Assembly: GCA_903896015.1 (NCBI GenBank)
Contig: CAITWF010000043.1
Span: 100,284 to 164,283, forward strand
Direction: 5' to 3'
From: an uncultured Opitutia bacterium
Lineage (GTDB): Bacteria; Verrucomicrobiota; Verrucomicrobiia; Opitutales; Opitutaceae
DNA length: 64,000 bases
A program made the translations under genes and the position numbers. The notes beneath the pieces were generated by a model, which saw only the letters and a list, made by a program, of their open reading frames with translations, was not told where the DNA came from and ran no database searches. Below, piece after piece: positions 45,557-63,042 of this stretch. Each line of letters starts with the position of its first letter. Positions within the stretch are counted from its first letter, which is position 1.

Positions 45557-46977
45557 ACGAATTTCAGTTTGCGCGCAGCAAACAGCACCATCTGCAGCAA
45601 CAGCCAGCCGTGTTTCCAGCGCTGGATGTTGGTTGTGCCGTAGGTGCGCTCGCGGTAGCGGATTGGCACGTCGGCGATCTTGAGATTGAGCTTCGCGGCG
45701 CCGAACAGGAGATCAAAATCGCCAAACGGATCGAAGTCGCCGAAGTACGCGCGATTGGCGGCGACTGATTCGTAGTGGGCGCGCGAGAGCACCTTGGTGC
45801 CGCAGAGCGTGTCCTTCACCGGCTGGCCGAGCAGCCAGGTGAAGATGAGACCGAAGGTTTTGTTCGCGCAGAGGTTGAGGAACTGCATTGCCTTTTCGTC
45901 CATCGGATAGACGAGGCGCACGCCGTTGGCGAACTCTGCCCGGCCGCTCGCGAGCACGGCGTAGAATTTTGGCAGGTCCTCGGGCGGCATCGTGAGGTCG
46001 GCGTCGAGGATCATCAGGATGTCGCCGGTCGCGACGGCGAAGCCCGCGCGGACTGCGTCTCCTTTGCCCTTGCCGGTCTGCTGGAGGATTTTGATTTTTC
46101 GATCCGGATTCTCGGCGGCGACTTTCTGAATCTGCGCCCAGGTGTCGTCCTTTGAGTGCCCCTCGACGAAAATGAGCTCGGTGCCCGCACCCATGTGCGG
46201 GGTGCGGGCGACGGCGGCGGCGATGTTGCCGGCTTCGTTGCGCGCGGGAATCACGACCGAAACGGTTCTTGCGCGATCGGCTGACGCGCGCGCCGGCCGG
46301 GCCACGATAAATACCGTGAGGCAAAACCACCCGAGCAGCGGCGCGAGCCAACGGTTCGCCAGCCAGTCGAGCCCGAGCGCGCGGAACGGCACGAGGATCC
46401 GGCCGTGGCGGCAGACGGGGCTCCAGCCGCCGAGGTCGAGCAGGTTGAGCACGTCGGAAGACGCGAGCCAGCTGTTCTGCGGCTGGGCGGCTTTGAGCCC
46501 GAGCGCGTGCGCGAGCGAGAGCAGCGGACGCCAGAGCGAGTTTTGAAAATTGATCAATAGACGGGTGTCGTCGTGTGCGACCCCGCGCAGTTGTTCGAAC
46601 AGTCGCTGCACGTCGGCCGCGAGGTTGAGCGTATCGGAAATGATGATGACATCGAAGCGGCGTCCGCCGAGATCGAGCTGTTCGCCGGCTTGCGCGAAAA
46701 ACTCCGCCTCCGGCAGCCGGGCACGCGCCACGGCGAGTTGGGGCTCGGACAGATCGACGCCGGTCTTTTTTTTTGCCCGGAGCTGCGCGAGCAATTCGCC
46801 GGACCCGCAACCGATCTCAAGTACACTCGCGCCGGCGGGAATCAGGAGATTGTAGTAGTGCGCCAGCAGGCGGCGGTAGGCGCGCGCCCCGCTTTGCGCG
46901 ACGGTCGGCGCAGCGTCGTAAAACGCGCGGACGCGATCGAGGTGATCGCGGGCGAGGGAGGAGAGTTCGGACGACAT
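45553..46977 (-). CDS. Methyltransferase-GT2 glycosyltransferase fusion
   Basis: The start MSSELSSLARDHLDRVRAFY (ATG at 46977) gives 474 residues; an in-frame ATG at 47064 adds an unlikely proline-rich extension. Residues 1-200 form a class I methyltransferase (GASVLEIGCGSGELLAQL motif I, DVIIISDTLN). From residue 237 a GT2 domain follows (VSVVIPARNEAGNIAAAV, acidic motif MILDADLTMPPEDL) with a C-terminal amphipathic tail, like polyprenol-phosphate glycosyltransferases. Joining the two activities suggests that the sugar is methylated before or after transfer (inference). The gene is divergent from the TolC-like gene. Confidence 0.85.
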   Translation of the reverse strand: MSSELSSLARDHLDRVRAFYDAAPTVAQSGARAYRRLLAHYYNLLIPAGASVLEIGCGSGELLAQLRAKKKTGVDLSEPQLAVARARLPEAEFFAQAGEQLDLGGRRFDVIIISDTLNLAADVQRLFEQLRGVAHDDTRLLINFQNSLWRPLLSLAHALGLKAAQPQNSWLASSDVLNLLDLGGWSPVCRHGRILVPFRALGLDWLANRWLAPLLGWFCLTVFIVARPARASADRARTVSVVIPARNEAGNIAAAVARTPHMGAGTELIFVEGHSKDDTWAQIQKVAAENPDRKIKILQQTGKGKGDAVRAGFAVATGDILMILDADLTMPPEDLPKFYAVLASGRAEFANGVRLVYPMDEKAMQFLNLCANKTFGLIFTWLLGQPVKDTLCGTKVLSRAHYESVAANRAYFGDFDPFGDFDLLFGAAKLNLKIADVPIRYRERTYGTTNIQRWKHGWLLLQMVLFAARKLKFV

Positions 46978-47106
46978 TTGGGTGGAACGAAGCGGCGCGT
47001 CAGTGGGACAGAAAGGTGGCGCGGACACGCCGCCGGGCTCAAGACTTATGGGTTGCAATCGCACTCGAAATCCCGCGGTTTGACCGTTCTAATTTTCGCC
47101 CTCTTC

Positions 47107-48513
47107 ATGCTGTCGATGGTTTATCACACTCTGCGCCGCTACCGCTGGGCGCTGGCAGCGCTTGCGAGCGCGGGGCTGTGGGCCGCCGCCCGGGGTCAGG
47201 CTCCGGAAACCGCGGGGACGCTGCCGGAGGATTATTTTCCCGCGTTGAAGATGCTCCTCGATGGCGCGATGAAACAGTCGCCCCAAATTATCCTGAAGGA
47301 GATTGAGACGGCACAATGGGAGGCGCGCGTTTACGTTCAGGACGCGCAGCGTTATCCAAGCCTGCACGGCGACATGAACTACGCGGAAAACCAGACCGCG
47401 ATCTCCAGCAACTCCAGCACTCGCAGCCGGGACAACGGCCTTTTCTACGATTTCTCGCTCAACCAGCCGCTCTTTCAGTGGGGCGCGATGAAAAATCAGA
47501 GCGAAATTGCGCGCATTTACGTGTCGATCGCTGAGAAGCGCTATGCCGAGATGCGCCGCTCACTCGCCGTATCGATCCGGCAACAATATCTCATGCTGAT
47601 CGCCAGGAAGCTCTACCTGCGCTCACAACGACTCACGCTGAAGAGCCAGCAGGCCGATCTTGATCTCACGCAGGATCGATTCCAACACGGCACGGCGGCG
47701 GAGGGCGAAGTCAGCGGCAAAAAGCTCGCACTCGAAGACACCAGCCTGCGCGTTGCCCGCGACGAGACGGAGTTTGTGGGGATGCGGAAGGCGTTTGCGC
47801 GGCTCGTCGGTCTCGCGGATTTTTCCGAAGAGGAGTTGCCGCTGGAAATTCCCAAGCCGGTCTACTCGGCGGAAAACACCAGCCGGATGCTCGCCTCGCT
47901 GTTGCGCGAGGGCGGCAAGAGCACCTTTGAGGCGCAGATTGCGCAGTTGGGCATCAAGCAGGCGGATTTGGACTACCGCATCGCGAAGGTTCGGCTCCTG
48001 CCGAAGTTCAACGCCGGTATCGACCACGCGGTGCGCAACAACACCACGGCCTCGACGAACACGGTCTCGCAGCAGGGCATCGTGCAGGACTCGATCGCCG
48101 TCTCGGGTAACTGGAATATTTTCGATGGTTTCGCGACGAAGGGTGCCAAGCTCGAAGCGCTTGCGACGAAACGGCTGCGCGAACGCGAACTTCAGATCGC
48201 GTCGGAAACGGCGATCGATTCCGCGCAGCGCCTTGAGCGCGAGCTCGCACTCGACGCCCGGGAAATTGATCTAACAGACGTGCGTCGCACGCTCGCCGCC
48301 GCTGGCATCGATCGTGTGAAAGAGGAAATCAAGCTCGGCAACCAGAAGCCCACTGCGGTCGAGGATGCGACCGTGAGTCTTTACGTCGCCGACTTTAATC
48401 GCTCCAACGCCCGCGCGAAATTTCTGTGGCACTGGAGCGATTTCGTCTCCCTTGCGGCCACCGATCCTGTCGTGAACAATCTCCCCTCCCATTATGGCCG
48501 CGAAAAACGATAA
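47107..48513 (+). CDS. TolC-like outer-membrane efflux protein
   Basis: About 468 residues from ATG 47107. The N-terminus (YHTLRRYRWALAALASAGLW) is a signal peptide with probable cleavage after ARG-QA. The rest has the alternating Asn/Leu-rich coiled helices and short beta-strands of OEP proteins (LYLRSQRLTLKSQQADLDLT; ALEDTSLRVARDETEF). The frame extends upstream to 46573, but that part overlaps the opposite-strand gene and has no protein-like signal. TolC forms the outer-membrane tunnel for the adaptor and ABC proteins encoded directly downstream. Its stop overlaps the adaptor gene by 20 bases. Confidence 0.88.
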   Translation: MLSMVYHTLRRYRWALAALASAGLWAAARGQAPETAGTLPEDYFPALKMLLDGAMKQSPQIILKEIETAQWEARVYVQDAQRYPSLHGDMNYAENQTAISSNSSTRSRDNGLFYDFSLNQPLFQWGAMKNQSEIARIYVSIAEKRYAEMRRSLAVSIRQQYLMLIARKLYLRSQRLTLKSQQADLDLTQDRFQHGTAAEGEVSGKKLALEDTSLRVARDETEFVGMRKAFARLVGLADFSEEELPLEIPKPVYSAENTSRMLASLLREGGKSTFEAQIAQLGIKQADLDYRIAKVRLLPKFNAGIDHAVRNNTTASTNTVSQQGIVQDSIAVSGNWNIFDGFATKGAKLEALATKRLRERELQIASETAIDSAQRLERELALDAREIDLTDVRRTLAAAGIDRVKEEIKLGNQKPTAVEDATVSLYVADFNRSNARAKFLWHWSDFVSLAATDPVVNNLPSHYGREKR

Positions 48514-49651
48514 GGGTAACGTCGCTCTCAAACTCCTCGTCGCGTTGGTCATCGTGGTCGCGGCTGCATGGCTCGTGCTCGGTCAGTTTCGTGCGACCGC
48601 CGTCGTGGCGGCCGTCGAACGCGGCGACGCGGTCGACATCGTCACGGGCAGCGTCGTCGTGCACGCCGAGGGGAATGTGAAGGAGCTTAAGAGCGAGGCC
48701 GCCGGCCGCGTCGAATGGTGCGAGGCGCTGGCCACGGGCGCGGTGTTCAAGAAGGGCGACGAATTGGTGCGGCTCGACTCGTCCGACCTTCGGCGGGAGA
48801 TCGAGCAGGCGGAGACGGATTTCAAGACCGCGACCGAGCGGAGAGAGATTCAGCTGCGCGACGATCCGCGGCTGAAAGTGGCGCAGCGCACGTTCGACAA
48901 CGCCAAGCGCGCGCACGATCGGCATGAGATTTCCGATGTGGATTTTGACAGCGCGCAGCACGCCTTCGACAAGGCGAAGACCGATCTTGAGCTGGAATCG
49001 TTCGACAGCACTCAGGCGAAGGCAGCGTTCGATAACAAGCAGGCCGAAAGCAAACGCCTCCTTGCAAAGATGACAATCCGCGCGCCGGTCGATGGCATCG
49101 TGCGCGACTCGGCGGTTTATCCCGGCGCCATTATTTCTCAGGGCACCACGGTCGCGACCTACTATTCCAAGGAGCGCTTCATCGAGGCGAAAGTGAGCGA
49201 GGACAGCGCGAGCAAACTCGGGGTCGGCCAGCGCGCGAAGGTGCGCCTGCTCAACCTCGGCAACACCGAATACGACGCGACCGTCACGAAGATTCTGCCG
49301 TTCGCCGACGCGGAAACCCAGCGCTACACCGCCTACCTTGAAATTGATCCGAAGGTGCTGGCACCGGAGAAACTCATTCCCTTCGGCACGGGGGAGGTGA
49401 CCATCACGGTGGCTGAAAACAAGAATTCGCAGCTCGTGCCGCGGCGGGCGCTGTTTTCCGGCATCGATGGCTACTACGTCTTTGTCGTGAAGGATGGGCG
49501 CGTGGAGAAACGCAAGGTCGACGTCGGCTTGCTCGGCTTGAACAAGGCCGAGGTGAAAAAATTTCTCTCCGCCGGCGAGACCGTGATCGTTTCGGACCTT
49601 GAACAGTTCCGCGGCGGTCAGCGCGTCCGCGCTGAGCCGGTAACGAACTGA
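48494..49651 (+). CDS. HlyD/RND-type periplasmic adaptor (membrane fusion protein)
   Basis: This 385-residue protein has an N-terminal TM (LLVALVIVVAAAWLVLGQFR), a long coiled hairpin between residues about 95 and 190, a lipoyl-type half-motif (MTIRAPVDGIVRDSAVYPGA), and beta-barrel and membrane-proximal domains (FIEAKVSEDSASKLGVGQRA). It links the inner-membrane ABC transporter to the TolC-like tunnel. The overlap with tolC and the short gap to the permease gene indicate a single operon. Confidence 0.9.
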   Translation: MAAKNDKGNVALKLLVALVIVVAAAWLVLGQFRATAVVAAVERGDAVDIVTGSVVVHAEGNVKELKSEAAGRVEWCEALATGAVFKKGDELVRLDSSDLRREIEQAETDFKTATERREIQLRDDPRLKVAQRTFDNAKRAHDRHEISDVDFDSAQHAFDKAKTDLELESFDSTQAKAAFDNKQAESKRLLAKMTIRAPVDGIVRDSAVYPGAIISQGTTVATYYSKERFIEAKVSEDSASKLGVGQRAKVRLLNLGNTEYDATVTKILPFADAETQRYTAYLEIDPKVLAPEKLIPFGTGEVTITVAENKNSQLVPRRALFSGIDGYYVFVVKDGRVEKRKVDVGLLGLNKAEVKKFLSAGETVIVSDLEQFRGGQRVRAEPVTN

Positions 49652-49675
49652 GGCCGCGCTCCCATCGCGCTTCCG

Positions 49676-50917
49676 ATGTCGCCGAACCTCCGCATTGCCT
49701 TCCGCTTCCTGACGGCGAAGAAGCGCGCCATGCTGATGAGCCTGTCGTGCACCGTGCTCGGCGTGGGGCTCTTCATTGTCTCACAGGCGACGACCAGCGG
49801 TTTCGAGGGCTTTTTCATTCATACGATTCTCGGCACCGACGGCGCGATGCGCATCGAGGACAAGATTCAGGACACGATGCGGAGTATGGGCGTGAGCGGT
49901 GGCGCGGGCTTTCAGGTGAGTGCGAAGGAAGGCGTGAAATACGTCGAAGGCGTCGAGCAGCCGAGGGAGATTGTCGAGGCGCTGCGGGAATTTTCCGGCG
50001 TGAGCGGCGTTTCGATCGCGCTGAAGGGCGCGGTGCAGTTGAGCAGCTCATTCAAGAACGAGGACGCGCAGGTTTTTGGCGTCGATCTGCGGCAGCACTT
50101 GCGGGTGTCGGATCTCGGCAAGCAGATCGCGGCGGGCACCCTCGAGGATTTTCAGAAATCGCCGACCGCGGCGTTGCTCGGGCGGGTGCTTGCGGAGCGG
50201 TTGCAGCTGGCGGTCGGCGATTCGTTTGTAATCAACTCCCATGGCGAGTCCCGCCGTTACCACGTGGCTGCGATTTACGAAACGGGCGTACGCGAGATCG
50301 ACAAGACGCGCGTATATCTCGATCTCGTCGAGGCGCGGTCGCTGTTGAAAAAGGCGACCGGGGCTTCGTTCATCCAAATCAACCTCGCTGATCCAAACCA
50401 GGCACCCGCGCTTGCGGCCCGAATGGAAGGGATGCTGGGCCATAGCGTGCGGCCGTGGCAGGAGCGCGAAAAGGACTGGCTCGCGGTGTTTCGCGCGCTG
50501 AAGATCATGTCGGGCATCACCGTCACCGTGTTCACCCTCATCGCGAGCCTCGCGATGTTCAACACGCTCGCCATGATCGTCCTCGAGAAGACCAAGGACA
50601 TCGCGATCCTGCGCTCGATGGGCTACGAGCGGCGCGACATTACGCAAATTTTCCTCTGGCAGGCGGGCATCGTGCTCGCGATCGGCGCGGCGCTCGGTGC
50701 GCTGTTTGGCTGGGTCGTCACGTGGGTGGTCGAGCAGGTGCCGCTGCCGATCAACAGCCTGTTCAAGACGGAACACTTCATCGTGTCGCGCGACCCGTGG
50801 CACTACGTTCAGGCCATCGGCACCGCAGTCGTCATGGTGATGGTCGCTAGCCTGGTGCCGGCGCGGCGCGCGGCGCGGCTGGAACCCGGCGATATCGTTC
50901 GTGGCACGGCACAATGA
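49676..50917 (+). CDS. FtsX/LolC-E-like ABC transporter permease
   Basis: This 413-residue protein has TM1 near the N-terminus, a roughly 230-residue periplasmic domain, and three C-terminal membrane segments forming the FtsX domain (VFTLIASLAMFNTLAMIVLE, KTKDIAILRSMGYERRDITQ). Length and layout match LolC/LolE more than MacB, since the ATPase is a separate protein. With TolC and HlyD partners it more likely forms a tripartite exporter than a lipoprotein-release complex (inference). It overlaps the ATPase gene by four bases. Confidence 0.88.
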   Translation: MSPNLRIAFRFLTAKKRAMLMSLSCTVLGVGLFIVSQATTSGFEGFFIHTILGTDGAMRIEDKIQDTMRSMGVSGGAGFQVSAKEGVKYVEGVEQPREIVEALREFSGVSGVSIALKGAVQLSSSFKNEDAQVFGVDLRQHLRVSDLGKQIAAGTLEDFQKSPTAALLGRVLAERLQLAVGDSFVINSHGESRRYHVAAIYETGVREIDKTRVYLDLVEARSLLKKATGASFIQINLADPNQAPALAARMEGMLGHSVRPWQEREKDWLAVFRALKIMSGITVTVFTLIASLAMFNTLAMIVLEKTKDIAILRSMGYERRDITQIFLWQAGIVLAIGAALGALFGWVVTWVVEQVPLPINSLFKTEHFIVSRDPWHYVQAIGTAVVMVMVASLVPARRAARLEPGDIVRGTAQ

Positions 50918-51624
50918 AATCGCCCTCAGCAAACTCTCCCGTGCCCCACGGACAACACGCGCTGCGCTGCGAGGGCTTGCAGCGCTACCTCGGCCAGGGT
51001 GAGGGCAGGGTGCACGTGCTCAAGGGCGTCTCCTTCGAGGCGCAGCGCGGCCAGGTTTACGCGATCGTTGGACCGTCGGGCTGTGGTAAGAGCACGCTGC
51101 TCTACCTGCTCGGCCTGCTCGATCAACCCGACGGCGGCTCGATCGAAATTAATGGCCAGCGCATGTCGAACAGTGACGATTTTGCTCGCACGGCGGCGCG
51201 CGGGGCGCACATCGGTTTTGTGTTTCAGTTTCACTTTCTGATGCTGGAGTTCAGCGCGCTCGACAACGTCATGATGCCGATGCGCAAGCTGGGGAAGCTG
51301 ACGTCCGCCGAGATGACGGAGCGGGCGCACGCGTTGCTCGACTCGGTCGGACTCGGCGCGAAGACCCACCGTCTGGGCACGCAGCTCTCCGGTGGCGAAC
51401 AGCAGCGCGTCGCGGTCGCCCGCGCGCTCGCCAATCAGCCCTCCATTATCCTTGCGGACGAGCCGACGGGAAATCTTGACGTGAAAAATTCCGGGATGGT
51501 CTTCGATCTGCTGACGCGGCTGGCAAAAGAAAATGGCCAAGCTGTCGTCCTCGTTACCCACAATCCGGAGATCGCCCAGCGCTGTGATGTCACGCGCCCG
51601 ATGCGGGACGGACTTTTCACCTGA
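50914..51624 (+). CDS. LolD/MacB-type ABC transporter ATPase
   Basis: This 236-residue protein is a complete ABC ATPase: Walker A IVGPSGCGKSTLLYLLG, Q-loop region HIGFVFQFHFLM, signature QLSGGEQQRVAVARALANQP, Walker B SIILADEPTGNLD, and the switch His in VLVTHNPEIAQRC. The family powers FtsX-type permeases. The start MKSPSANSP overlaps the permease stop (ATGA). It is the last gene of the tolC operon. Confidence 0.93.
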   Translation: MKSPSANSPVPHGQHALRCEGLQRYLGQGEGRVHVLKGVSFEAQRGQVYAIVGPSGCGKSTLLYLLGLLDQPDGGSIEINGQRMSNSDDFARTAARGAHIGFVFQFHFLMLEFSALDNVMMPMRKLGKLTSAEMTERAHALLDSVGLGAKTHRLGTQLSGGEQQRVAVARALANQPSIILADEPTGNLDVKNSGMVFDLLTRLAKENGQAVVLVTHNPEIAQRCDVTRPMRDGLFT

Positions 51625-51979: not shown

Positions 51980-52639
51980 ATGTCGAAAATCTTCCCGAAG
52001 TCGGCGAACAAGCTCCCGCTCCAAATCGTGATCTACTTGGGCGTGCTCGCGGGCATCGCCACGGCCGGAGTCACTTACTACATGACACCGAAATACACGC
52101 GCGTCGGCTACGCGCCGGTGCAGCCGGTGCCGTTTAGCCACGCGAAGCACGTGCAGGAAGTCGGCCTCGACTGCCGCTACTGCCACTCGAACGTCGACAA
52201 GTCCTATCACTCGAACGTCCCAACGTCGCAGACGTGCATGAACTGCCACAATCAGATCAAGACGACGAGCCCGCTACTCAAGCCGATCCGCGACAGCTAC
52301 GCGACGGGCGAGGCCGTGCCGTGGGTCTGGATCCACCAGACTCCCGACTACGCCTACTTCAACCACTCGATTCACGTGAACCGCGGCGTCAGCTGCGTCG
52401 AGTGCCACGGCAAGGTTAACGAGATGGATGTCGTCACCCACATGCAGCCGCTCTCGATGGGCTTCTGCATTGAATGCCACCGGAACCCCGAGGCGCGCAT
52501 CCGCAATCCGAAAGACGTCTTCAATCTCGATTCCAAGCGCCTAGCCGAGCAGGGCGACGCCGGCGTGAAGCAGGCCGCCACGTTTGTGCACGATTGGAAA
52601 GTGAAACCTCCCCAGAGCTGCTCCGGCTGCCATCGATGA
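51980..52639 (+). CDS. actA: Alternative complex III subunit ActA, pentahaem cytochrome c
   Basis: This 219-residue protein has a single N-terminal TM (IVIYLGVLAGIATAGVTYYM) and five CxxCH haem c motifs: CRYCH 65-69, CMNCH 86-90, CVECH 139-143, CIECH 163-167 and CSGCH at the very end. This is the standard ActA of alternative complex III, which passes electrons from the ActB iron-sulphur clusters to the monohaem subunit. It faces the periplasm. The stop overlaps the actB start (ATGA). Confidence 0.95.
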   Translation: MSKIFPKSANKLPLQIVIYLGVLAGIATAGVTYYMTPKYTRVGYAPVQPVPFSHAKHVQEVGLDCRYCHSNVDKSYHSNVPTSQTCMNCHNQIKTTSPLLKPIRDSYATGEAVPWVWIHQTPDYAYFNHSIHVNRGVSCVECHGKVNEMDVVTHMQPLSMGFCIECHRNPEARIRNPKDVFNLDSKRLAEQGDAGVKQAATFVHDWKVKPPQSCSGCHR

Positions 52640-55600
52640 AACGCAAAGTTGAACATCCCGCACCGTCGGAACGCTCGTTGAACGGCCCGAAATATTGGCG
52701 CAGCCTCGACGAACTCGCGGCCACGCCCGGCTTCCAGGCGCAGGTGGAGCGCGAATTCCCGCATGGCGCCGCTGAAATGAACGGCGTCGATCGCCGCCAG
52801 TTCATGAAAATCATGGCGGCGTCGTTTGCCCTCGGTGGCATCGGCCTCGCAGGCTGCCGCCGCCCCGAGCAAAATATTCTTCCCTTCGGTAAATCCGTCG
52901 AAGGCATCATCCCCGGGCTCCCGCAGTATTACGCGACGGCGATGCCGCTGCGCAAATCCGCGATCCCGCTCCTCGCTGAGACCCACCAGGGCCGCCCTAC
53001 CAAACTCGAAGGCAACCCGACTTACGCCCCGCACGGCGGCGCCAGCTCGCTTCTCGCGCAGGCTTCGATCCTCGATCTTTACGATCCGGATCGCGCCACT
53101 GCTCACACCAAAGGTGGGGCTGTCCTTGATGCGGCGGTGGTCAATACGCTTCTCGCCAGCATTTCGCAGTCATATTCTGGCAACTCCGGTGCGGGCCTCG
53201 CGTTTCTCGCCGAGGAGTCCTCTTCGCCGACGCGCGCGCGCCTTGTCAAGAATCTCCGCCGCAAGTTCCCGAAGGCCGTCTGGGCCGAATACGAGCCCGT
53301 CACCGACGAGCCCCCGCTGGCCACCGCTCAGGCGTGCTTCGGCGCGAATGTGAAACCGGTCTACCAGTTCGCGAAGGCGAAGCGGATCGTTTCGCTTGAT
53401 TGCGATTTTCTCAGCTCAGAGGCCGGCAATCTCTACTACGCGCGCGAGTTTGCGAAGGGCCGCAAGGTCAAGTCGAAGGACGATGCGGACAAGATGAACC
53501 GCCTCTACGTGGCGGAGAGCAACTTCACCCTCACCGGTAGCATGGCGGATCACCGCCTCCGGATCGCGAGCAGCCACATCATCAATCTCGCCGCCGCTCT
53601 GGCGAGCAAGGTCACCGGCGATAACCGCCTCGCGGCTCTCGCGAAGGAATCCGACGTCAAGCCCGAGTGGATCGCCGAGTGCGCCGCCGACCTGCTTGAG
53701 CACAAGGGCACTTCGCTCGTCGTCGCGGGTGCGCACCAATCCGCACAAGTACACGCGATCGCCTACGCGCTCAACGCGTTTCTCGGCAACCTCGGCGAGA
53801 CTATCGACTTCGTTGAAGTCGCGCCCTCGACCGCCGCCTCCATCTCCGATCTCGCCGCTGCGATCAAGAGCGGCTCAGTCAAGACGCTCGTCGTCCTCGG
53901 CGGCAATCCCGCCTATAATGCGCCCGCCGATCTCGACTGGGCGGCGTTGCAGAAGTCGGTCGGCGACGTCGTCCGTTTCGGCTACTATGCCGACGAAACC
54001 TCTGCCCTAGCCGGAACGCATCTCGCCGCCGCGCACTATCTCGAATCGTGGGGCGACGCCCGCACGACCGATGGCACGATCGTGCCCGTGCAGCCGATGA
54101 TTCTCCCGCTCTTCGGCGGTCTGACCGAGAACGAAGTCCTCGCGCGCATCGCCGGCGAAACGAAGACCGATCCCTACGCGATCGTCGTTGAAACGATCAT
54201 CGGCATCGCGGGCGGTGACTCCGAGAAGGCGATGCGCCAGTTCCTGCACGACGGGCTGCTCACTGGAAGCGCCTACAGCAAGGTTTTGGTGGAATTCGAT
54301 CTGCGCGGCGCGGCCGGGCTGTTCCGCACGATGCCGGCGAAGCCCGAGGTTTCCGCGAAGAGCCTCGAAGTTCGCTTTGTCACCGATCACAAGATGGACG
54401 ACGGTCGCTTTGCCAACAACGGTTGGCTGCAAGAGTGCCCGGATCCGATGACTAAGATCTCTTGGGACAACGCGATCCTCGTCAGCCCGAAACTAGGCAA
54501 GGAACTCGGCATCTCGCCGCACGGCTCGAAGCTCCAAATTGCTCGCGTCGAGGAAAACGAATTCTCGATCGGCAAGGAAAATTCCCACGTATTCGAGTTG
54601 ACCGTCGGCGGAAAAAAAATCCGCGGTCCGCTGCACATCCAGCCCGGTCTCGCGAATTACACGGTCGTCGTCCCGCTCGGTTACGGACGCACGGTTACCG
54701 GCCACGTCGGCACTGGTGCCGGTTTCAACGCTTATCCCGCCCGCACCACTGCCGCGATGCACATCGCCACGGGTGCGACGCTCACGGACACCGGCACCCG
54801 CGCGCTTCTGGCCAACGTGCAGGAACACTGGTCCATGGAAGGTCGCGACATCGTGCGCGAGGCCAACGTCGACGAGTTTAAGGAGAATCCGAATTTCGTC
54901 GCCGCGATCGGCCTCGAGGCGCACAGCCCGTCGATTCTCGGTGAAGACGGGGAGAAAATGAAGATTGGTGAACGCTCCGCGGAGGTTCCGCGCGGTGGCT
55001 CGCTCTACGCGACACCCAGCGAGAAGAACGGCGGCTTCGACGGCCACCACCAGTGGGGCATGTCGATCGATCTCAATACGTGCATCGGCTGCAACGCGTG
55101 CGTCGTCGCCTGTCAGGCTGAAAACAACGTCCCGATTGTGGGCAAAGACCAGGTGCTCCGTGGCCGCGAGATGCACTGGATCCGCCTCGATCGCTACTAC
55201 TCTGACGGCAACATCGACGCCGCGGCATTTGGTGGCGAAGGCAACCGCACGCTTCCTGAAGATCCGCAGGTTTCGCTCCAGCCTGTCGCCTGCATGCAGT
55301 GCGAACTCGCCCCATGCGAGACCGTGTGCCCCGTCAACGCGACGGTCCACGACGACGAAGGCATCAACACGATGGCCTACAACCGCTGCATCGGCACCCG
55401 TTACTGCGCGAACAATTGTCCTTATAAGGTCCGCCGCTTTAATTTCTTCGACTGGAATCAGCGTCACCTCGACAGCCTTTACCTCAGCCAACTCGGCCCG
55501 AAAGGCATGCCCGAACTCGTAAAGATGGTGAAGAACCCCGAGGTCACCGTGCGCATGCGCGGTGTGATGGAGAAGTGCACTTATTGCGTCCAGCGCATCC

Positions 55601-56058
55601 AGAACGGCAAGATTCAGCACAAGGTCAAAGTGATGCAGGGTCGCAACGGCGCCGCGGGGGACATCCCACTTGAGGATATCCAAGTTCCCGACGGCACCAT
55701 CAAGACCGCCTGTCAGCAAGTGTGCCCCGTCGAAGCGATCGTGTTTGGCAACTTGCTCGACGAGAAAAGCGCCGTCTCGAAAGCGAAGGCGCGCGAGCAC
55801 GACTATTCGCTGCTCGGCTATCTCAACATCCGCCCGCGCACCACTTACCTCGGCAAACTCCGCAACCCGAACCCGAAGATGCCCGACTACGCGGCGCTGC
55901 CGCTCAGCCGCATCGAGAACGCCAAGAAGAATCATCCGGCCGGTCTCGAGGAACGCCACGGAGCAGGGGAGCACGCGCCCGTTCACAGCGAGGAAAAGAA
56001 AAAGGAAGGCGCTCACACCTTGCTCAATGCCGCGAAAAATCTCGGAGGACTTAGCTAA
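52636..56058 (+). CDS. actB: Alternative complex III subunit ActB, molybdopterin-oxidoreductase-like iron-sulphur protein
   Basis: The start ATG 52636, overlapping the actA stop, gives 1140 residues. The N-terminus has a Tat motif (DRRQFMK, 52-58) and lipobox (GLAGC, Cys74), suggesting a Tat-exported lipoprotein. The first two thirds resemble a molybdopterin-type oxidoreductase that lacks cofactor in characterised ActB proteins. The C-terminal third is ferredoxin-like with four cysteine groups: [42 protein letters not shown] (the 3Fe-4S type, Thr in place of a Cys) and CTYCVQRI with CQQVCPVEA. This is the usual fused ActB1-B2 arrangement. It receives electrons from menaquinol oxidised at ActC. 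Confidence 0.95.
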
Positions 56059-57485
56059 TGGCCCACGCTGAACACACCGCTCCGCGCGCCGCGATCCTGG
56101 CGGAAGTCAAACCGGCGGTCTTCCCGCGCGCCGCGCTGGTCGAGCACGGTCGCAGCTTTTCTTGGATCACGGACAAGATTTGCGGCATCATCGAAGGCAA
56201 AACGCCCGCGTGGTGGTGGTATTGCTTCGTCGTCGCGTGTCTCGTCGCGTCGTTCACCGTCGCTGGCATCACCTACCTGATCGCCACGGGCGTCGGCGTC
56301 TGGGGCCACGCCAACCCGGTCAACTGGGCGTGGGACATCGTCAACTTCGTGTTTTGGATTGGTATCGGTCACGCCGGCACCCTGATCTCCGCGATCTTGT
56401 GTTTGCTCCGACAGAAGTGGCGCACGTCGATCAACCGCGCCGCCGAGGCCATGACGATCTTCGCGGTCGTCTGCGCTGCAATCTTCCCGGTCTTCCACGT
56501 CGGTCGCGTGTGGTATGCCTGGTATCTCTTCCCGATTCCGAATTCCAACGTCATCTGGCAGAACTTCCGTTCGCCGCTCGAGTGGGACGTGTTCGCGGTC
56601 TCGACCTACGGCACGGTCTCGGTGCTCTTCTGGTATATTGGTCTGATCCCCGACCTCGCGGTGCTCCGTGATCGCTTCTACGCCACAGGTAACAAGCTTC
56701 GCTCCTTCCTCTACGGCCTTTTCGCGATGGGCTGGCGTGGATCGAACCGTCACTGGAGCAACTATGAGATGGCCTACATGATCCTCGCCGGCATCTCGAC
56801 TCCGCTCGTGCTCTCGGTGCACACGATCGTTTCGTTCGACTTCGCCGTTTCGCTGCTCCCGGGCTGGCACACGACGATCTTCCCGCCCTATTTTGTCGCG
56901 GGCGCGATCTTCTCGGGTTTCGGCATGGTGCTCACGCTCATGCTCCCGTTGCGAGCCGTCTACAAGATGGAGGACCTGATCACGCAGTATCACATCGACT
57001 GCATGTGTAAGATCACGTTGGCGACCGGCACGATCGTTGGCTACGCCTACGGCATCGAGTTCTTCATCGCCTGGTATGGCGCGAATCCGTATGAAGGCTT
57101 CGCGTTTATTAATCGCGCGTTTGGCCACTACGCCTGGGCCTATTGGATCATGATTTCATGCAACGTGATCACCCCTCAGTTCTTCTGGTTCAAGGCCGTC
57201 CGCGAAAACACGACGCTCGTCTGGGTGCTCTCGATCTTCGTCAACGTCGGCATGTGGTTCGAGCGCTTCGTGATCATTGTGACCTCGCTCGCCCGCGACT
57301 TCCTGCCGTCAAGCTGGGGCTACTACTCGCCGAGCATCGTCGAAATCTTCACGTTCTTCGGGACGTTCGGCGTGTTCTCCGTGCTGTTCCTCCTCTTCAT
57401 TCGTTTCCTGCCGATCATGCCGATGGCCGAACTCAAGGCGGTCACCCCGCAGGCCGACGCCCATGGCGGCGGCGATCACCATTAA
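56058..57485 (+). CDS. actC: Alternative complex III subunit ActC, NrfD-like quinol-binding membrane protein
   Basis: This 475-residue protein has ten hydrophobic segments and the NrfD/PsrC pattern: [20 protein letters not shown] early and [20 protein letters not shown] at the middle loop. In ACIII this subunit binds and oxidises the quinol at the periplasmic side and contributes to proton movement. It shares one base with the actB stop and is followed by actD after 12 bases. Confidence 0.95.
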
Positions 57486-57497
57486 TTTTTTCCGCGC

Positions 57498-58031
57498 ATG
57501 GCAGCCCAACCTTACGGCTTAATCGCCACCTTCGACAAAACGCCCGACGTGTATCACGCCGCGGAGTTGGTGCGCGACGCTGGCTATCGCAACTGGGACG
57601 TAATCACGCCGTTCCCCGTCCACGGTCTCGACAAGGCGATGGGCCTCAAGCGCTCGATCGTGCCGCGCATCTCGCTCGTTGGCGGACTCACTGGTTTCAC
57701 GACCGGCATGACCATGATTTGGTGGACGGGCGCCTACGACTACAAGCTGGTCGTTGGCGGCAAGCCGTTTTTCAGCCCGATGTTCGCTTTTCCCGTCAGT
57801 TACGAACTCACGATTTTGTTCACCGCGTTCGCGACGATCATCGGAATGTTCGTCGTCAACGGCCTGCCGATGCACTACCATCCCGTGCTGAAATACGATC
57901 AGATCCGCCGCGGCATGGACGATCAGTTTTTCGTCGTCATCGAAGCGCGCGACCCGCGCTTCAACGCCGCCAACACCCGCGCGCTTCTTGAGAAGGCCGG
58001 CGGCAAAAACATCACGGAGATCGAGGCCTGA
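57498..58031 (+). CDS. actD: Alternative complex III subunit ActD (DUF3341)
   Basis: This 177-residue protein has a soluble N-terminal part (YGLIATFDKTPDVYHAAELV) and two membrane segments (SLVGGLTGFTTGMTMIWWTG and a second at about 95-120), the known DUF3341 architecture of ActD. It is a structural subunit at the cytoplasmic side of ACIII. The next gene, actE, starts four bases after its stop. Confidence 0.92.
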   Translation: MAAQPYGLIATFDKTPDVYHAAELVRDAGYRNWDVITPFPVHGLDKAMGLKRSIVPRISLVGGLTGFTTGMTMIWWTGAYDYKLVVGGKPFFSPMFAFPVSYELTILFTAFATIIGMFVVNGLPMHYHPVLKYDQIRRGMDDQFFVVIEARDPRFNAANTRALLEKAGGKNITEIEA

Positions 58032-58034
58032 GCC

Positions 58035-58676
58035 ATGCGTAACGTCTACCTCGCCACCGCGCTTATCTGCGTGCTCATCTTCTCAATCTTTGGATTGCGG
58101 GGCACGAAGTTTACCTCGCCTCCGATCGATGTGTTTCCGGAATGGGCGTTTCCCGGCATGAAGCGCCAGCCGAAATTCCGTCCGCAGGCGGCCAGCCAAT
58201 TCTTCGCGGATGGCCGGGCCGATCGCGTGCCGGTGGAGCACACTGTCCGCGCTGATACCCCGGTGCGTAACGACGATCATCTCTACTACGGCAAGGATGC
58301 GACCGGCGCGTTTGCCCACGGCTTCCCGGCATCGCTCACTGTCGACAAGGCCTTTATCGAGCGTGGCCGCGACCGCTACACGATTTATTGCCAGCCCTGC
58401 CACGGCGCGGTGGGCGATGGCAATGGTATCACGAAAAAATATGGCATGGGCGCGACACCCACCTATCACGACGCTCGCCTCCGGCAAATTGCGGAAGGCG
58501 AAATCTACAACACGATCACCAACGGCAAAAACAACATGCTGCCCTACGCGGACAAGGTTGAGCCCGCCGATCGTTGGGCGGTGATCGCCTACGTGCGGGC
58601 GCTCCAGCGCGCGCAGCAGGGCACTGTCGCTGACGTCACCGACGCGGCTGGCAAACAAACTCTCGGTCTCAAATGA
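58035..58676 (+). CDS. actE: Alternative complex III subunit ActE, monohaem cytochrome c
   Basis: This 213-residue protein has an N-terminal anchor (VYLATALICVLIFSIFGLRG), a single haem motif YCQPCHGAVGDG, and the Met ligand in NNMLPYADKVEP. Many ActE proteins are lipoproteins; here a plain TM or uncleaved signal is seen instead of a clear lipobox Cys. It accepts electrons from ActA and passes them to a downstream acceptor. It overlaps actF by four bases. Confidence 0.93.
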   Translation: MRNVYLATALICVLIFSIFGLRGTKFTSPPIDVFPEWAFPGMKRQPKFRPQAASQFFADGRADRVPVEHTVRADTPVRNDDHLYYGKDATGAFAHGFPASLTVDKAFIERGRDRYTIYCQPCHGAVGDGNGITKKYGMGATPTYHDARLRQIAEGEIYNTITNGKNNMLPYADKVEPADRWAVIAYVRALQRAQQGTVADVTDAAGKQTLGLK

Positions 58677-59953
58677 GTTCCCACGCTGCCACCGCTCCTG
58701 CGGCTCTCCCTTCCGCCGACTCGACCGCTTCGACCGCGAGCAAGGCGCTGTCGATCGGCGTCGCCGGCATCGTGCTTACGGCGCTCGGAATTTTCGTATC
58801 GGGCGCGAAGACGATCGCGTTTTCCTGGCTCGTCGGCGTCACCTATTGGACCGCGATCGCGATCGGCATGTTGTTGCTCGTGATGATTCACCATATCGTT
58901 GATGCGGGTTGGTCGACGGTCATCCGCCGTCAATACGAGCACGGCCTCTCGGCTTTCCTGTGGCTCGCAATTCTCTTTTCGCCGCTCGTGATCGCTTCGC
59001 TTTTTGCCGACAAGCACGACCTGATCTGGCCGTGGATGGAACCCACGCACGAGCTGCACGGCGGTCACACCGTCGCGCAGGATCCTCTCTATCTGAAGAA
59101 GTCCGGCTTCCTCAACCTGAAGGCCTTCGTGATTGGCACGTTTGCCTTCTACGGCATTTGGATGTGGCTCTCCTCGCGGCTCCGCAAGGCGTCGTTCTCA
59201 CAGGACGTCGACGGCGACATCAAGTGGACGCGCATGAACCGCGTCACGTCCGCGATGGGCCTGCCGCTCACCGCGCTCTCGCTCACCGCCGCCGCGATCT
59301 TCTGGGTGAAGTCGCTCGAGTATCACTGGTTCTCCACGATGTACGGTGTGTGGTTCTTCGCGAACTGCGTGCGTGGCGCGCTCTCCGTCGGCATCGTCAT
59401 CATGCTCTGGCTGCTCCAGCGCGGCGACTATCAGGGTGGCGTGTATAACAAGAACCAACTCCATTGCATTAGCACGCTGGCCTTCGCGTTTACCGTCTTC
59501 TGGGCCTACGTCACCTTCTCGCAATACTTCCTGATCTGGAATGCGAACGTGCCCGAGGAGACCTTCTGGTATAACCTCCGCGAATTGAACCATGACGGCT
59601 CCACGAACCAATGGTGGTATATTGGCCTCGTGATTCTGTTCGGCCACTTCGTCGTGCCGTTCCTCTTGATGCTTTCGTATCGCTTCAAAACGACGCCGCA
59701 CATCATCCGCCGCATCGCACTCTGGATTCTCGCGATCATCCTGATCGACCTTTGTTACAACATTCTGCCCGGCATGAAGGACGAGCATGGCGATTCGCTG
59801 CCGTTCCTCTCGCTGCGACTGCTCTGGGTGCTGACTTCAGTGGTGGGAGTCGGCGGCGTCTGCGCTTGGGCCTACCTCAAGAGTTTCCCGACGACCAAGC
59901 TCATCCCGATACGCGACCCGCGCATCGGCGAGTGCCTGACCCATCATGAGTGA
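58673..59953 (+). CDS. actF: Alternative complex III subunit ActF, NrfD-like membrane protein
   Basis: This 426-residue protein has about ten membrane segments. It shows MLLLVMIHHIVDAGWSTVIR and a conserved tract QYFLIWNANVPEETFWY, both typical of ActF, the second NrfD-like subunit. It lacks the quinol-site function of ActC in solved complexes and probably forms part of the proton path. The overlap with the next small gene is eight bases (ending CATGAGTGA). Confidence 0.93.
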   Translation: MSSHAATAPAALPSADSTASTASKALSIGVAGIVLTALGIFVSGAKTIAFSWLVGVTYWTAIAIGMLLLVMIHHIVDAGWSTVIRRQYEHGLSAFLWLAILFSPLVIASLFADKHDLIWPWMEPTHELHGGHTVAQDPLYLKKSGFLNLKAFVIGTFAFYGIWMWLSSRLRKASFSQDVDGDIKWTRMNRVTSAMGLPLTALSLTAAAIFWVKSLEYHWFSTMYGVWFFANCVRGALSVGIVIMLWLLQRGDYQGGVYNKNQLHCISTLAFAFTVFWAYVTFSQYFLIWNANVPEETFWYNLRELNHDGSTNQWWYIGLVILFGHFVVPFLLMLSYRFKTTPHIIRRIALWILAIILIDLCYNILPGMKDEHGDSLPFLSLRLLWVLTSVVGVGGVCAWAYLKSFPTTKLIPIRDPRIGECLTHHE

Positions 59954-60284: not shown

Positions 60285-61715
60285 GTGATGACCACTGCCC
60301 CCACCAATGCTTCGGCTGAAGTCACCGCCATCGACGCGGCGGCGCGCTGGCCGCTGCTGCTGTTGATCGCTTCCGCGATTTCGTGGCTCGTGCTGAGCGG
60401 CGTGCTCGCGCTGATCGCCTCGATTCAACTCGTGCAGCCGGCGTTTCTCGCGGATTGCTCGGTGTTCACGCACGGTCGGACGGTCGCGATGCAGGAATCA
60501 ATTTTCGTCTACGGTTGGGCCGCGAATGCCGGCCTGGCGATCGCGCTCTGGATTCTCGGCCGCCTCGGCGGTTCACTGCTGCGCGCGACCAACTGGGTTG
60601 TCGCCGGAACAGTGGCATGGAACTTGGCTGTCGCGCTCGGCGTGATCGGCATCGCCATCGGTGATGCGACCTCGATCGTGTTGCTCGAGCTCCCGCGTTA
60701 CGTGCAATTGATCATGGTCGTCGCCTACGGCGCGATCGCGGTATCTGGCGTGCTGGCGTGGATCGGCCGCCGCACGGAAGGCACATACGCCGCGCAGTGG
60801 TATGCGGTCGCGGCGCTGTTTCTTTTCCCGTGGTTGTTCTCCGCTGCGCAAATGATGCTGCTGTGGGCACCGCTCCGCGGCACGCTCCAGGCGGTCGCTG
60901 CCGGCTGGTTTTCGCAGGGCGTCTGGACGCTCTGGCTCGCTCCGCTCGCGCTTGCCGCAGCCTATTACGTCGTGCCGAAGGTCACCGGCCGCGTGCTTCC
61001 CAGCTACGAATTTGCACCGCACAGTTTTTGGTGCTTGCTCGTCGTCGGTGGCTTCACCGGTGGACGCCACTTGGTCGGAGGCCCGGTGCCCGCGTGGATT
61101 GCGAGCCTCGCCATTGTTTCCTGCGTGCTGCTCCTCTTCCACTATTTCATTGTCTTCATCAATCTTCGCGGCGGGCTAGGGCGCGGCAGCACGGCGGCGC
61201 GCCTCGTGTCGGTCGGCCTGCTCGCATATGCGCTGGGCGGCTTGGTCGACGCAATTACGGCGTTTCGCGGCGTGGCGTTGGTCACGCAGTTCACGTTCAT
61301 TGATGTGGCCCAGCAGCAACTCGCGCTCTATGGCGGGTTCTCCCTTATCCTCCTCGGTGCGATCTATTTTGCGGTGCCGCGTTTGACGGGCCGCAGCTGG
61401 GTTTCAGGTGCGTTGGTCAGTGGTCATGCAGCGTTGCTGCTCGCCGGGGTCGCGGTCCTGGTTGCGAGCTTGAGTGCCGCGGGTTGGGCGCAAGGCCACG
61501 ATCTGCTCAACGCCAAGACCTCATTTGCGACCATCGCGGAGCACACGCGCACGTGGCTCCTGCTCGGCACCGCTGCGCAGGGTGTGCTCCTCTTCGGCAA
61601 TCTCCTCCTGCTCGTGAATTTCCTCCAGACGGCGTGGGCAACCTGCTGCCCGACTGCGCCGTCCGCTGAAAATCCCTTCCGCCAGCCTTCGTCAATGGAG
61701 GCGACCGCGTCATGA
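60285..61715 (+). CDS. CcoN-like (haem-copper oxidase subunit I) homologue lacking metal-ligand residues
   Basis: This 476-residue protein has about twelve membrane segments and aligns by eye with cbb3 oxidase subunit CcoN over its middle part: YYVVPKVTGRVLPSYEF (compare MYYFVPK..RPVYSYR), SFWCLLVVGGFTGGRH, and FIDVAQQQLALYGG. In Pseudomonas CcoN numbering, His60 aligns with A68, His207 with Q211, His257 with R261 (His258 is kept as H262), His347 with Q343 and His349 with Q345. The cross-linked Tyr251 aligns with G255. Without these residues it cannot bind haem b, haem b3 or CuB in the usual way. A histidine at H63 is five residues away from the His60 position. It overlaps the CcoO-like gene by four bases. 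Confidence 0.82.
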   Translation: MMTTAPTNASAEVTAIDAAARWPLLLLIASAISWLVLSGVLALIASIQLVQPAFLADCSVFTHGRTVAMQESIFVYGWAANAGLAIALWILGRLGGSLLRATNWVVAGTVAWNLAVALGVIGIAIGDATSIVLLELPRYVQLIMVVAYGAIAVSGVLAWIGRRTEGTYAAQWYAVAALFLFPWLFSAAQMMLLWAPLRGTLQAVAAGWFSQGVWTLWLAPLALAAAYYVVPKVTGRVLPSYEFAPHSFWCLLVVGGFTGGRHLVGGPVPAWIASLAIVSCVLLLFHYFIVFINLRGGLGRGSTAARLVSVGLLAYALGGLVDAITAFRGVALVTQFTFIDVAQQQLALYGGFSLILLGAIYFAVPRLTGRSWVSGALVSGHAALLLAGVAVLVASLSAAGWAQGHDLLNAKTSFATIAEHTRTWLLLGTAAQGVLLFGNLLLLVNFLQTAWATCCPTAPSAENPFRQPSSMEATAS

Positions 61716-62374
61716 AAAACGGCCCCCTCTTTTTCTTCGGCCTCTTCGCCGCGCTCACGCTCTCGTGGGCGGGCACGGTGTTGCTTTCGCATCACCAGTT
61801 GGGTGGACTTGCCCCGTTTTACGACGAGAACGAGAGTGCCGCGTTTCCGCTGCGCCAGCCCGGCGTCGCGGCGCGCGGTCAGCTTGTGTATGCCGATCTC
61901 GGTTGTGCCTCGTGCCATACACAACAGGTGCGCCGCCCGGAATTCGGCGCCGATCAGGCGCATGGCTGGGGAGAGCGCCAGAGCGTGGCGCGCGACTACA
62001 TTTTCCAAGCCCGCCCGCAGCTTGGTGCGTTGCGGGTCGGTCCCGATCTCGCGAACCTCGGCGGGCGAAAGCCGGCCTATGATTCCGACGATTTGATCTC
62101 GCTGCTCTACACCGGTGTCATCCCGGGCGCCAAGGCGGTTACGCATCCGTACTACAAGTTCCTCTTCGATGAACGCCCGGTCGTCGGTGAGAAATCCGCC
62201 GTTGCGCTCAAGCTTACTGGCGCGCTTGCCGCCTCGGCTGGCTCCCAGATCGTCCCGACTGAACGGGCCCAAAGTCTCGTCGCGTTTCTTCTCAGCTTGA
62301 ACAACAGCTACGATTATCCCGAGGCGCGTCCTTTCGTCGAAAAGACCGAGAAGAAGGAAGGAGAAAAGAAATGA
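61712..62374 (+). CDS. CcoO-like (FixO) membrane-anchored cytochrome c with altered axial ligand
   Basis: This 220-residue protein has an N-terminal TM (GPLFFFGLFAALTLSWAGTV), one haem motif in GQLVYADLGCASCHTQQVRR, and RVGPDLANLGGRK, all matching CcoO of cbb3 oxidases. In CcoO the Met axial ligand lies in MPAYPWL; here the aligned stretch is HPYYKFL with His145 at the Met position. The initiator is the only methionine in the protein, so His/Met ligation is impossible and His/His is likely. It is translationally coupled to the CcoN-like gene before it and the cytochrome c gene after it (four-base overlaps). Confidence 0.9.
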   Translation: MKNGPLFFFGLFAALTLSWAGTVLLSHHQLGGLAPFYDENESAAFPLRQPGVAARGQLVYADLGCASCHTQQVRRPEFGADQAHGWGERQSVARDYIFQARPQLGALRVGPDLANLGGRKPAYDSDDLISLLYTGVIPGAKAVTHPYYKFLFDERPVVGEKSAVALKLTGALAASAGSQIVPTERAQSLVAFLLSLNNSYDYPEARPFVEKTEKKEGEKK

Positions 62375-63042
62375 GCCAGCCGTCCAATTCCGATCCGCGC
62401 CTTGAGCAGGCGGCCGCCACCGATGAGAGCCTGCTGGCCTCCCACGAAAAGCTGTTGGGCAAAAAGCCTGACGATCAGGCCAACTACCGCCTGCTGCCGC
62501 TCAACCTACTCTTCGTATTTTCCGGCCTGATCTTTTTCGCCGGCACCTACCTGAATCTCTACTCCGGTCACTTCGATCCGAAGATCTATAATGAGCATGC
62601 TCTGCCGCGACCCGCAGGTGCGGAAGAGGTTGTCAAAGTTGACCCCCGTGAGCTCGGTAAAAAGCTTTTCAACAACGCAGCGTGCAATACCTGCCACCAA
62701 GTCACCGGTCTCGGCCAACCGGGTGTCTATCCTCCGCTTGCAGGCTCTGAATGGGTCGTCGGGTCGGAAGAGCGTGTGATTCGTATCTTGCTCCACGGAC
62801 TCCAGGGCAAAGTCACCGTCAAGGGCACGGAATACAGTGCCGCCGCCATGCCTGCCTTTGGCAAAGTTGCCGGCTCTGGCTATAACTGGAGTGACGATAA
62901 GATTGCCGCCGTGCTGACCTACGTTCGATCTGAATGGGGTAACAGTGCCGGCCCGATCACCACCGAAAAAGTCGCCGAAATTCACGCCAAAGAAGGCGAT
63001 CACAAGGCTTGGGCTGCTGACGAGCTGACGAAACTCCCGTAA
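62371..63042 (+). CDS. Membrane-anchored monohaem cytochrome c
   Basis: This 223-residue protein has a cytoplasmic N-terminal part, one TM (LNLLFVFSGLIFFAGTYLNL) and a periplasmic class I cytochrome c domain with CNTCHQVTGLGQPG and the Met ligand in AAMPAFGKVAG. Its place after CcoN- and CcoO-like genes is that of CcoP, but it has one haem, not two. It is the last gene of the operon and may carry electrons from the ACIII module to a soluble or oxidase acceptor (inference). A hairpin follows at 63071. Confidence 0.9.
   Translation: MSQPSNSDPRLEQAAATDESLLASHEKLLGKKPDDQANYRLLPLNLLFVFSGLIFFAGTYLNLYSGHFDPKIYNEHALPRPAGAEEVVKVDPRELGKKLFNNAACNTCHQVTGLGQPGVYPPLAGSEWVVGSEERVIRILLHGLQGKVTVKGTEYSAAAMPAFGKVAGSGYNWSDDKIAAVLTYVRSEWGNSAGPITTEKVAEIHAKEGDHKAWAADELTKLP

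Follow-up and report, generated by a model that had tools for sequence, protein, structure and literature searches.

Haem-copper oxidases serve as marker enzymes, and a gene named 'cbb3' is read as evidence that oxygen is respired with high affinity. Does that reading still hold when the gene lacks the residues that bind haem and copper, and what would such a gene be kept for? The question is raised by a 64,000-nt stretch of DNA from an uncultured Opitutia bacterium (hereafter the window, whose base and residue numbers are used throughout), in which the operon of alternative complex III (ACIII) continues on the plus strand with a gene for a relative of CcoN, the subunit I of cbb3-type oxidases (60285..61715). 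This CcoN-like protein has lost the ligands of haem b, haem b3 and copper, and comparison of its homologues led us to propose, with an even chance of being right, that it acts as a cofactor-free membrane scaffold for electron transfer from ACIII to an oxidase.

The open reading frame had the length and frame stated in the earlier note on this DNA. It opens with GTG, and an ATG follows directly at 60288. That note had described the product as a CcoN homologue devoid of its ligands, and the Pfam, NCBIfam and structure matches, together with an alignment with the genome's own genuine CcoN (L002, HHYHHHH), bore this out. Pfam COX1 covered residues 25-429 with 103 bits, and the five matching solved structures were all cbb3 subunit I or cytochrome-c oxidases of the cbb3 kind; the CcoN fold is present. 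The likeness to the nitric oxide reductase NorB (3o0r, 4xyd), in structure as well as in sequence, was clearly lower than that to CcoN, and the His positions in common with the haem and FeB ligands of NorB were lost. The NCBIfam ccoN model gave 73.8 bits, below its cut-off of 583, which does not discriminate alone, because three relatives with all ligands (G046, G190, and G041) also fell below it with 236-254 bits.

The ligand columns were read against L002 and relatives and numbered H60, H207, Y251, H257, H258, H347, and H349, which we take to be P. stutzeri numbering. A homologue was called intact when these seven positions read HHYHHHH (six His ligands and the Tyr) and broken when they read anything else. 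Compared with CcoN, the C-type (cbb3) subunit I (e.g., P. stutzeri 3mk7), the window protein was without five of the six His ligands and without the helix VII tyrosine that cross-links to the CuB ligand, which is replaced by G255. Q211, R261, Q343, and Q345 stood at ligand positions as the earlier note had claimed, with H262 as the sole survivor, and the codons CAG CAG CAA of residues 343-345 were found where it had read them (61311-61319). Its assignment of A68 to the first haem b position was wrong, since that position is held by Q70 (CAG, 60492-60494). Visual inspection of the sequence around all four sites showed conserved flanks, which anchored the alignment register and spoke against a slip in the far rows. 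Moreover, a same-genus relative with 82% identity had the identical pattern QQGRHQQ, so the loss of the ligands is not a matter of chance. A transfer of the ligand role to H63 or H246, which the earlier note had named as a result that would speak against it, was not seen: neither residue is conserved (at these columns 97% of intact rows show F and 84% show L, respectively), and H262 occupies only its own CuB column. H381, the other conserved His, was rejected as a replacement ligand because the genuine CcoN also has a non-ligand His in that column. The ligand set having been tested and found missing, this protein should not, on its sequence, be filed as a cbb3 oxidase.

The same loss was found well beyond this genome. 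Sequence matches to the protein occurred in 50 of 57 genomes of near relatives and in 126 of 383 genomes of a phylum sample, eight of the latter matches (G104, G108, G125, G139, G174, G266, G346, and G372) being without fetched regions; a 451-residue part of an intact relative served as the second query. The regions around the matches contained 139 CcoN homologues that neighbour ActC or ActF. Four with gaps at the ligand columns (G032, G036, G045, and G333) were dropped from the counts, and the remaining 135 were readable at all seven positions, 39 of them intact and 96 broken. The number of rows with six, three, two, one, and no His was 39, 4, 6, 59, and 27, respectively, and no row of the 135 had four or five; the set is nearly all or nothing. 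QQGRHQQ was the commonest replacement (10 rows, window included), followed by HSAQKFI (8), ANTSRRW (4), and SESSHFV (3), and many patterns were single. The replacing residues varied by lineage, FNAAEVL being a further example. The presence of 39 intact homologues points to an active oxidase as the ancestor of the family and to a recurrent loss. The earlier note had expected homologues with restored ligands to count against its claim; homologues with the full set do exist beside ACIII, and the loss in the window protein stands nonetheless. A second intact copy was observed in G014 (L069, G014:C1:3327781-3329130), with no ACIII genes in the fetched region and another COX1 gene ~5 kb away.

Could the broken forms still be redox enzymes, with haems or a metal held by other residues? 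Two of them, G067 (L153) and G210 (L157), have the pattern HNSQRYH, in which both His of the low-spin haem b are kept and the CuB and b3 positions are lost. A low-spin haem b may therefore survive there, and these forms may represent a cytochrome b intermediate. The window protein, however, has Gln at four of the six positions and Arg at one, no other conserved His falls on a ligand column, and in 86 of the 96 broken rows no more than one of the six His remains. We regard a redox function as the least probable explanation of all. Another explanation is that ACIII drives proton conduction or pumping through the emptied core. Such a proton or ion path would fit the replacement of many ligands by polar Gln, Arg, and Lys and the constancy of QQGRHQQ in ten rows, but replacements that differ between lineages (FNAAEVL, ANTSRRW, HSAQKFI) do not suggest one conduction path in common, and we consider it improbable.

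The c-haem partners, in contrast to the ligands, were kept. The CXXCH motif was present in the CcoO-like partner of 96/96 broken rows and in the CcoP-like partner of 95/96, and the CcoP-like axial Met was kept in 93/96. In the window, the CcoO-like protein has its c-haem motif with His in the axial Met column. Classical CcoP has two CXXCH motifs. The CcoP-like partner differs from it in having one, and is no dihaem protein in the intact forms either. The dN/dS between the window gene and its same-genus copy was 0.132, and all 11 broken-form pairs fell between 0.047 and 0.242. In 38 intact rows, 136 columns reached 95% conservation; 28 of these dropped below 40% in the broken rows, including all six ligand columns, and most of the columns conserved in the broken forms hold residues of helix packing and loops (W, G, P, Y). 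These comparisons indicate that the broken forms are still conserved, though less tightly and in another way than the intact ones, with the focus no longer on the former active site. The open frame, the dN/dS of 0.13, and the retained partners agree with the earlier view that this is not a random pseudogene.

The source genome has two further COX1 genes elsewhere, an aa3/caa3-type gene with the usual His motifs and a CcoNO fusion, while the CcoN-like protein was found at one locus only in a scan of the contigs. Other oxidases were inventoried in 86 of the 96 broken-form genomes and in the 39 intact-form genomes. A further COX1 gene was present in 86/86 of the former, whereas the ACIII-linked gene was the sole COX1 in 4/39 of the latter (G041, G046, G190, and G361). 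The contrast was significant (Fisher p 0.008), although G046 and G190 are congeneric, the completeness of G041 is 80%, and G361 is a distant row. In addition, at least 23 broken-form operons were followed by a genuine COX1 gene on the same strand, ~1.6-2.5 kb downstream. Among the matches listed, which covered 34 genomes and gave distances between profile matches, an oxidase lay within 3 kb in 24 (23 broken and one intact, G301) and did not in 10. Since a genuine oxidase gene directly follows in so many operons, a docking platform fits best among the roles proposed in the earlier note, which had also offered a structural hub and a proton or quinone channel; the data neither favour nor contradict the channel.

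We therefore return to the scaffold and relay, and set out how it would work. An active ACIII-cbb3 oxidase would have come first, with two jobs, the reduction of O2 and the docking of, or relay from, ACIII. Where another oxidase took over O2 reduction, catalysis would have been lost and the docking job would have kept the protein. The scaffold would hold the c-haem subunits, CcoO-like and CcoP-like, against ACIII, and electrons from menaquinol would pass via ACIII and then those c-haems to a separate, genuine terminal oxidase. In the source genome, the electrons are predicted to go to the caa3- or cbb3-type oxidase encoded at another locus. The complex is predicted to contain no haem b, and its c-haems should be reduced by ACIII. 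The observations on which this proposal is built are the fold, the ligand loss, the c-haem motifs, the purifying selection, the recurrence, the intact homologues in sister operons, the other oxidases, and the oxidase genes downstream in other families.

Several findings weigh against it. In the window's own family the real oxidases are not beside the operon; all operons with a downstream oxidase belong to other families of the class, from which the adjacency is borrowed. ACIII in other classes does without a CcoN-like protein, the gene being found in 1/28 genomes with ActD. The axial Met of the CcoO-like partner was present in 39/39 intact but only 58/96 broken rows, where Cys (22), His (5, including the window), Lys (5), and fewer of others took its place. 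This is likely a ligand switch that tracks the loss of the active site; with the Met relaxed, the relay may run through the CcoP-like protein alone, or be weak. The dN/dS values of the broken forms were above those of four intact pairs (0.012-0.074; a fifth intact pair was saturated), the ratio of oxidase to ACIII distances had a median of 2.0 in broken and 0.72 in intact forms (pairs not independent), and two matches, G356 and G383, had an in-frame stop. The relaxed axial Met, together with the W, G, P, and Y of the conserved columns, would suit a structural brace, which stabilises ACIII in the membrane; the two c-type cytochromes would then act with other partners, and no electron relay would run through this complex. 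A brace alone does not account for the near-complete retention of both CXXCH motifs or for the oxidase genes that directly follow, and we hold it to be unlikely, if less so than a proton path. The faster evolution and the stops are also what slow decay of a dispensable relict would produce, but by far most copies have an open frame of full length, dN/dS is far below 1, and the partners are retained alongside, all of which makes this very improbable. The broken forms are moreover common to whole families, and in the window's order, Opitutales, the gene was present in all 64 genomes with ActD.

Retention was nearly as complete in the rest of the class, where 45 of 47 genomes with a strong ActD match had the gene; the other two, G063 and G374, gave no CcoN-like gene with the two queries. 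Weak ActD matches (E 1e-9 to 1e-19; family f23, genus g76) went with a CcoN-like gene in 0/13 genomes. Given these and the other classes, ActD was rejected as a general sign of the gene. In G230, G242, and G401 (L159, L160, and L162), ActE and ActF remain together with the CcoN/O/P-like genes, and ActD is found at a separate locus. Genomes of the methanotroph type (G417:C1:470535, G196:C1:470671, G096:C1:580798, and others) have a second ActD-family match in open frames of ~700-1000 residues, perhaps an ActD-like domain fused to something larger.

How often the ligands were lost was addressed with trees of the gene and of its neighbours. With the ligand columns masked, the gene's own tree required 3 changes of state, both under LG+G4 (142 rows) and under a mixture model (67 rows). 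The concatenated ActB+ActC+ActF tree (131 rows, four of the 135 being left out for want of a usable ActC; G233 is a poor row) required 18, all forced by well supported branches. Single ACIII genes gave 15-18 changes and CcoO+CcoP gave 11. The disagreement between the gene tree and the ACIII tree precludes a single clean count, and counts that forbid regain (5 and 3 on the two gene trees, 24 on the ACIII tree) were not used because Gln to His is a one-base change. A history of few losses followed by exchange, in which two or three broken lineages recombined into other ACIII operons, would explain the 3 changes found with either model, and when five mixed clades of the ACIII tree were tested against the data of the oxidase gene, two were rejected (p 0.003 and 0.00004). 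On the other hand, the three remaining clades were not rejected (p 0.20-0.22), the ACIII genes and CcoO+CcoP require the larger numbers of changes given above, and long-branch joins were flagged by the tree tool. This history is a possibility that we rate at appreciably less than even, separately from the question of function. The cleanest case was G216, which is broken (AAGVNQQ) and lies inside an intact clade on both trees. Taken together, the trees point to a loss that recurred, no fewer than three times and probably more often, combined with either long-branch error or some movement of the gene from operon to operon.

The operon itself is laid out in Table 1. The earlier note had placed the gene in an ACIII operon with a CcoO-like partner, and gene order and family matches agree with this. 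ActA to ActF and the downstream genes run in one direction and several of them overlap, with an ATG inside the preceding stop region at 58673, 59946, 61712, and 62371, and the gene order after ActA-F is the same in relatives. The ActD locus is the only one in the source genome. For the ActB-like protein the listed reading frame opens at 52474, and the start given in the table was deduced from the overlap with the ActA stop. Searches of Pfam for ActF, and of Pfam and NCBIfam for the 110-aa protein, returned nothing over the cut-off. The operon stops ~960 bases before the contig end. Upstream, the genes at 46573-51624 resemble by eye an outer-membrane efflux protein, a membrane fusion protein, and the permease and ATPase of an ABC system.

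Table 1. Genes of the ACIII operon in the window and ligand columns of its CcoN-like protein.
Feature	Position	Strand	Basis
ActA-like multihaem cytochrome c (ACIII)	51980..52639	+	Operon place, CXXCH motifs in translation; homologue in same place in most relatives' operons
ActB-like Fe-S / molybdopterin-type protein (ACIII)	52636..56058	+	Translation; homologue in relatives
ActC, NrfD-like membrane subunit	56058..57485	+	PF03916, 84 bits
ActD	57498..58031	+	PF11821, 216.5 bits
ActE, monohaem cytochrome c	58035..58676	+	PF13442, 46 bits; one CXXCH
ActF, membrane subunit	58673..59953	+	Position; homologue in relatives
Small single-helix protein, 110 aa	59946..60278	+	Overlaps actF end; homologue in many intact and broken operons
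CcoN-like subunit I without haem/copper ligands, 476 aa	60285..61715	+	Pfam, NCBIfam, structure matches, alignment
Q70 at haem b ligand position (H60)	60492-60494	+	CAG, read directly
Q211 at CuB ligand position (H207)	60915..60917	+	Alignment
G255 at cross-linked tyrosine position (Y251)	61047..61049	+	Alignment
R261 and H262 at CuB positions H257 and H258 (His kept at H258)	61065..61070	+	Alignment
Q343 and Q345 at haem b3 (H347) and haem b (H349) positions	61311..61319	+	Codons of residues 343-345, read directly
CcoO-like monohaem cytochrome c	61712..62374	+	PF02433 (FixO), 32.4 bits; one CXXCH
CcoP-like membrane-anchored monohaem cytochrome c, axial Met present	62371..63042	+	PF00034, 44.5 bits; one CXXCH

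The broken form also occurs in methanotrophs. G196, the genome that matches Methylacidiphilum kamchatkense Kam1, has the pattern SESSHFV, and downstream of its ACIII operon come the broken gene, two small genes, and a genuine COX1. The ccoN model found no gene over its cut-off in G196, G417, G096, G309, or G413, a model that also misses the intact ACIII-linked forms (236-254 bits). In the accessible part of the Kam1 paper, the ACIII-linked genes are called a cbb3 oxidase whose high affinity is considered consistent with the growth observed at low oxygen (PMC6688271). A review, in the portion available, reports a cbb3-type oxidase beside ACIII in all but one of the isolated verrucomicrobial methanotrophs, and a C-type oxidase with ACIII only in Opitutaceae and verrucomicrobial methanotrophs (PMC8498564). 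From the operon place, which is the same, we infer that the gene meant in both is the broken gene. The review, as far as its accessible text goes, treats these oxidases as working, whereas the ligands are lost in the source genome and in the Kam1-matching genome. A literature search, with most subscription journals outside its reach, showed no earlier report of an oxidase subunit I without ligands among the titles and abstract openings listed.

The proposed role resembles the ACIII-aa3 supercomplex of Flavobacterium johnsoniae, where, according to the accessible parts of two reports, ACIII feeds the adjacent oxidase (PMC8552683, PMC8361435). The partner there is a catalytic aa3 oxidase bound via its subunit III, whereas here a ligand-less CcoN-like protein stands between the ACIII genes and the oxidase genes. 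Across the class, a bolder reading, to which we give somewhat less than even chances, is that the ACIII-coupled oxidase was disarmed perhaps 18 times or more and its shell kept as a cofactor-free relay scaffold between ACIII and a second oxidase, in which case the methanotroph 'cbb3 oxidase' would not be an oxidase.

These results indicate that a large and coherent group of genes named 'cbb3' is without the residues that the chemistry needs. If the scaffold reading is true, the group would be a natural experiment on the non-catalytic needs of a respiratory supercomplex, with intact and broken versions in sister genera. If the oxidase was indeed disarmed, the 'cbb3 oxidase' invoked for the high O2 affinity of verrucomicrobial methanotrophs would be no oxidase.
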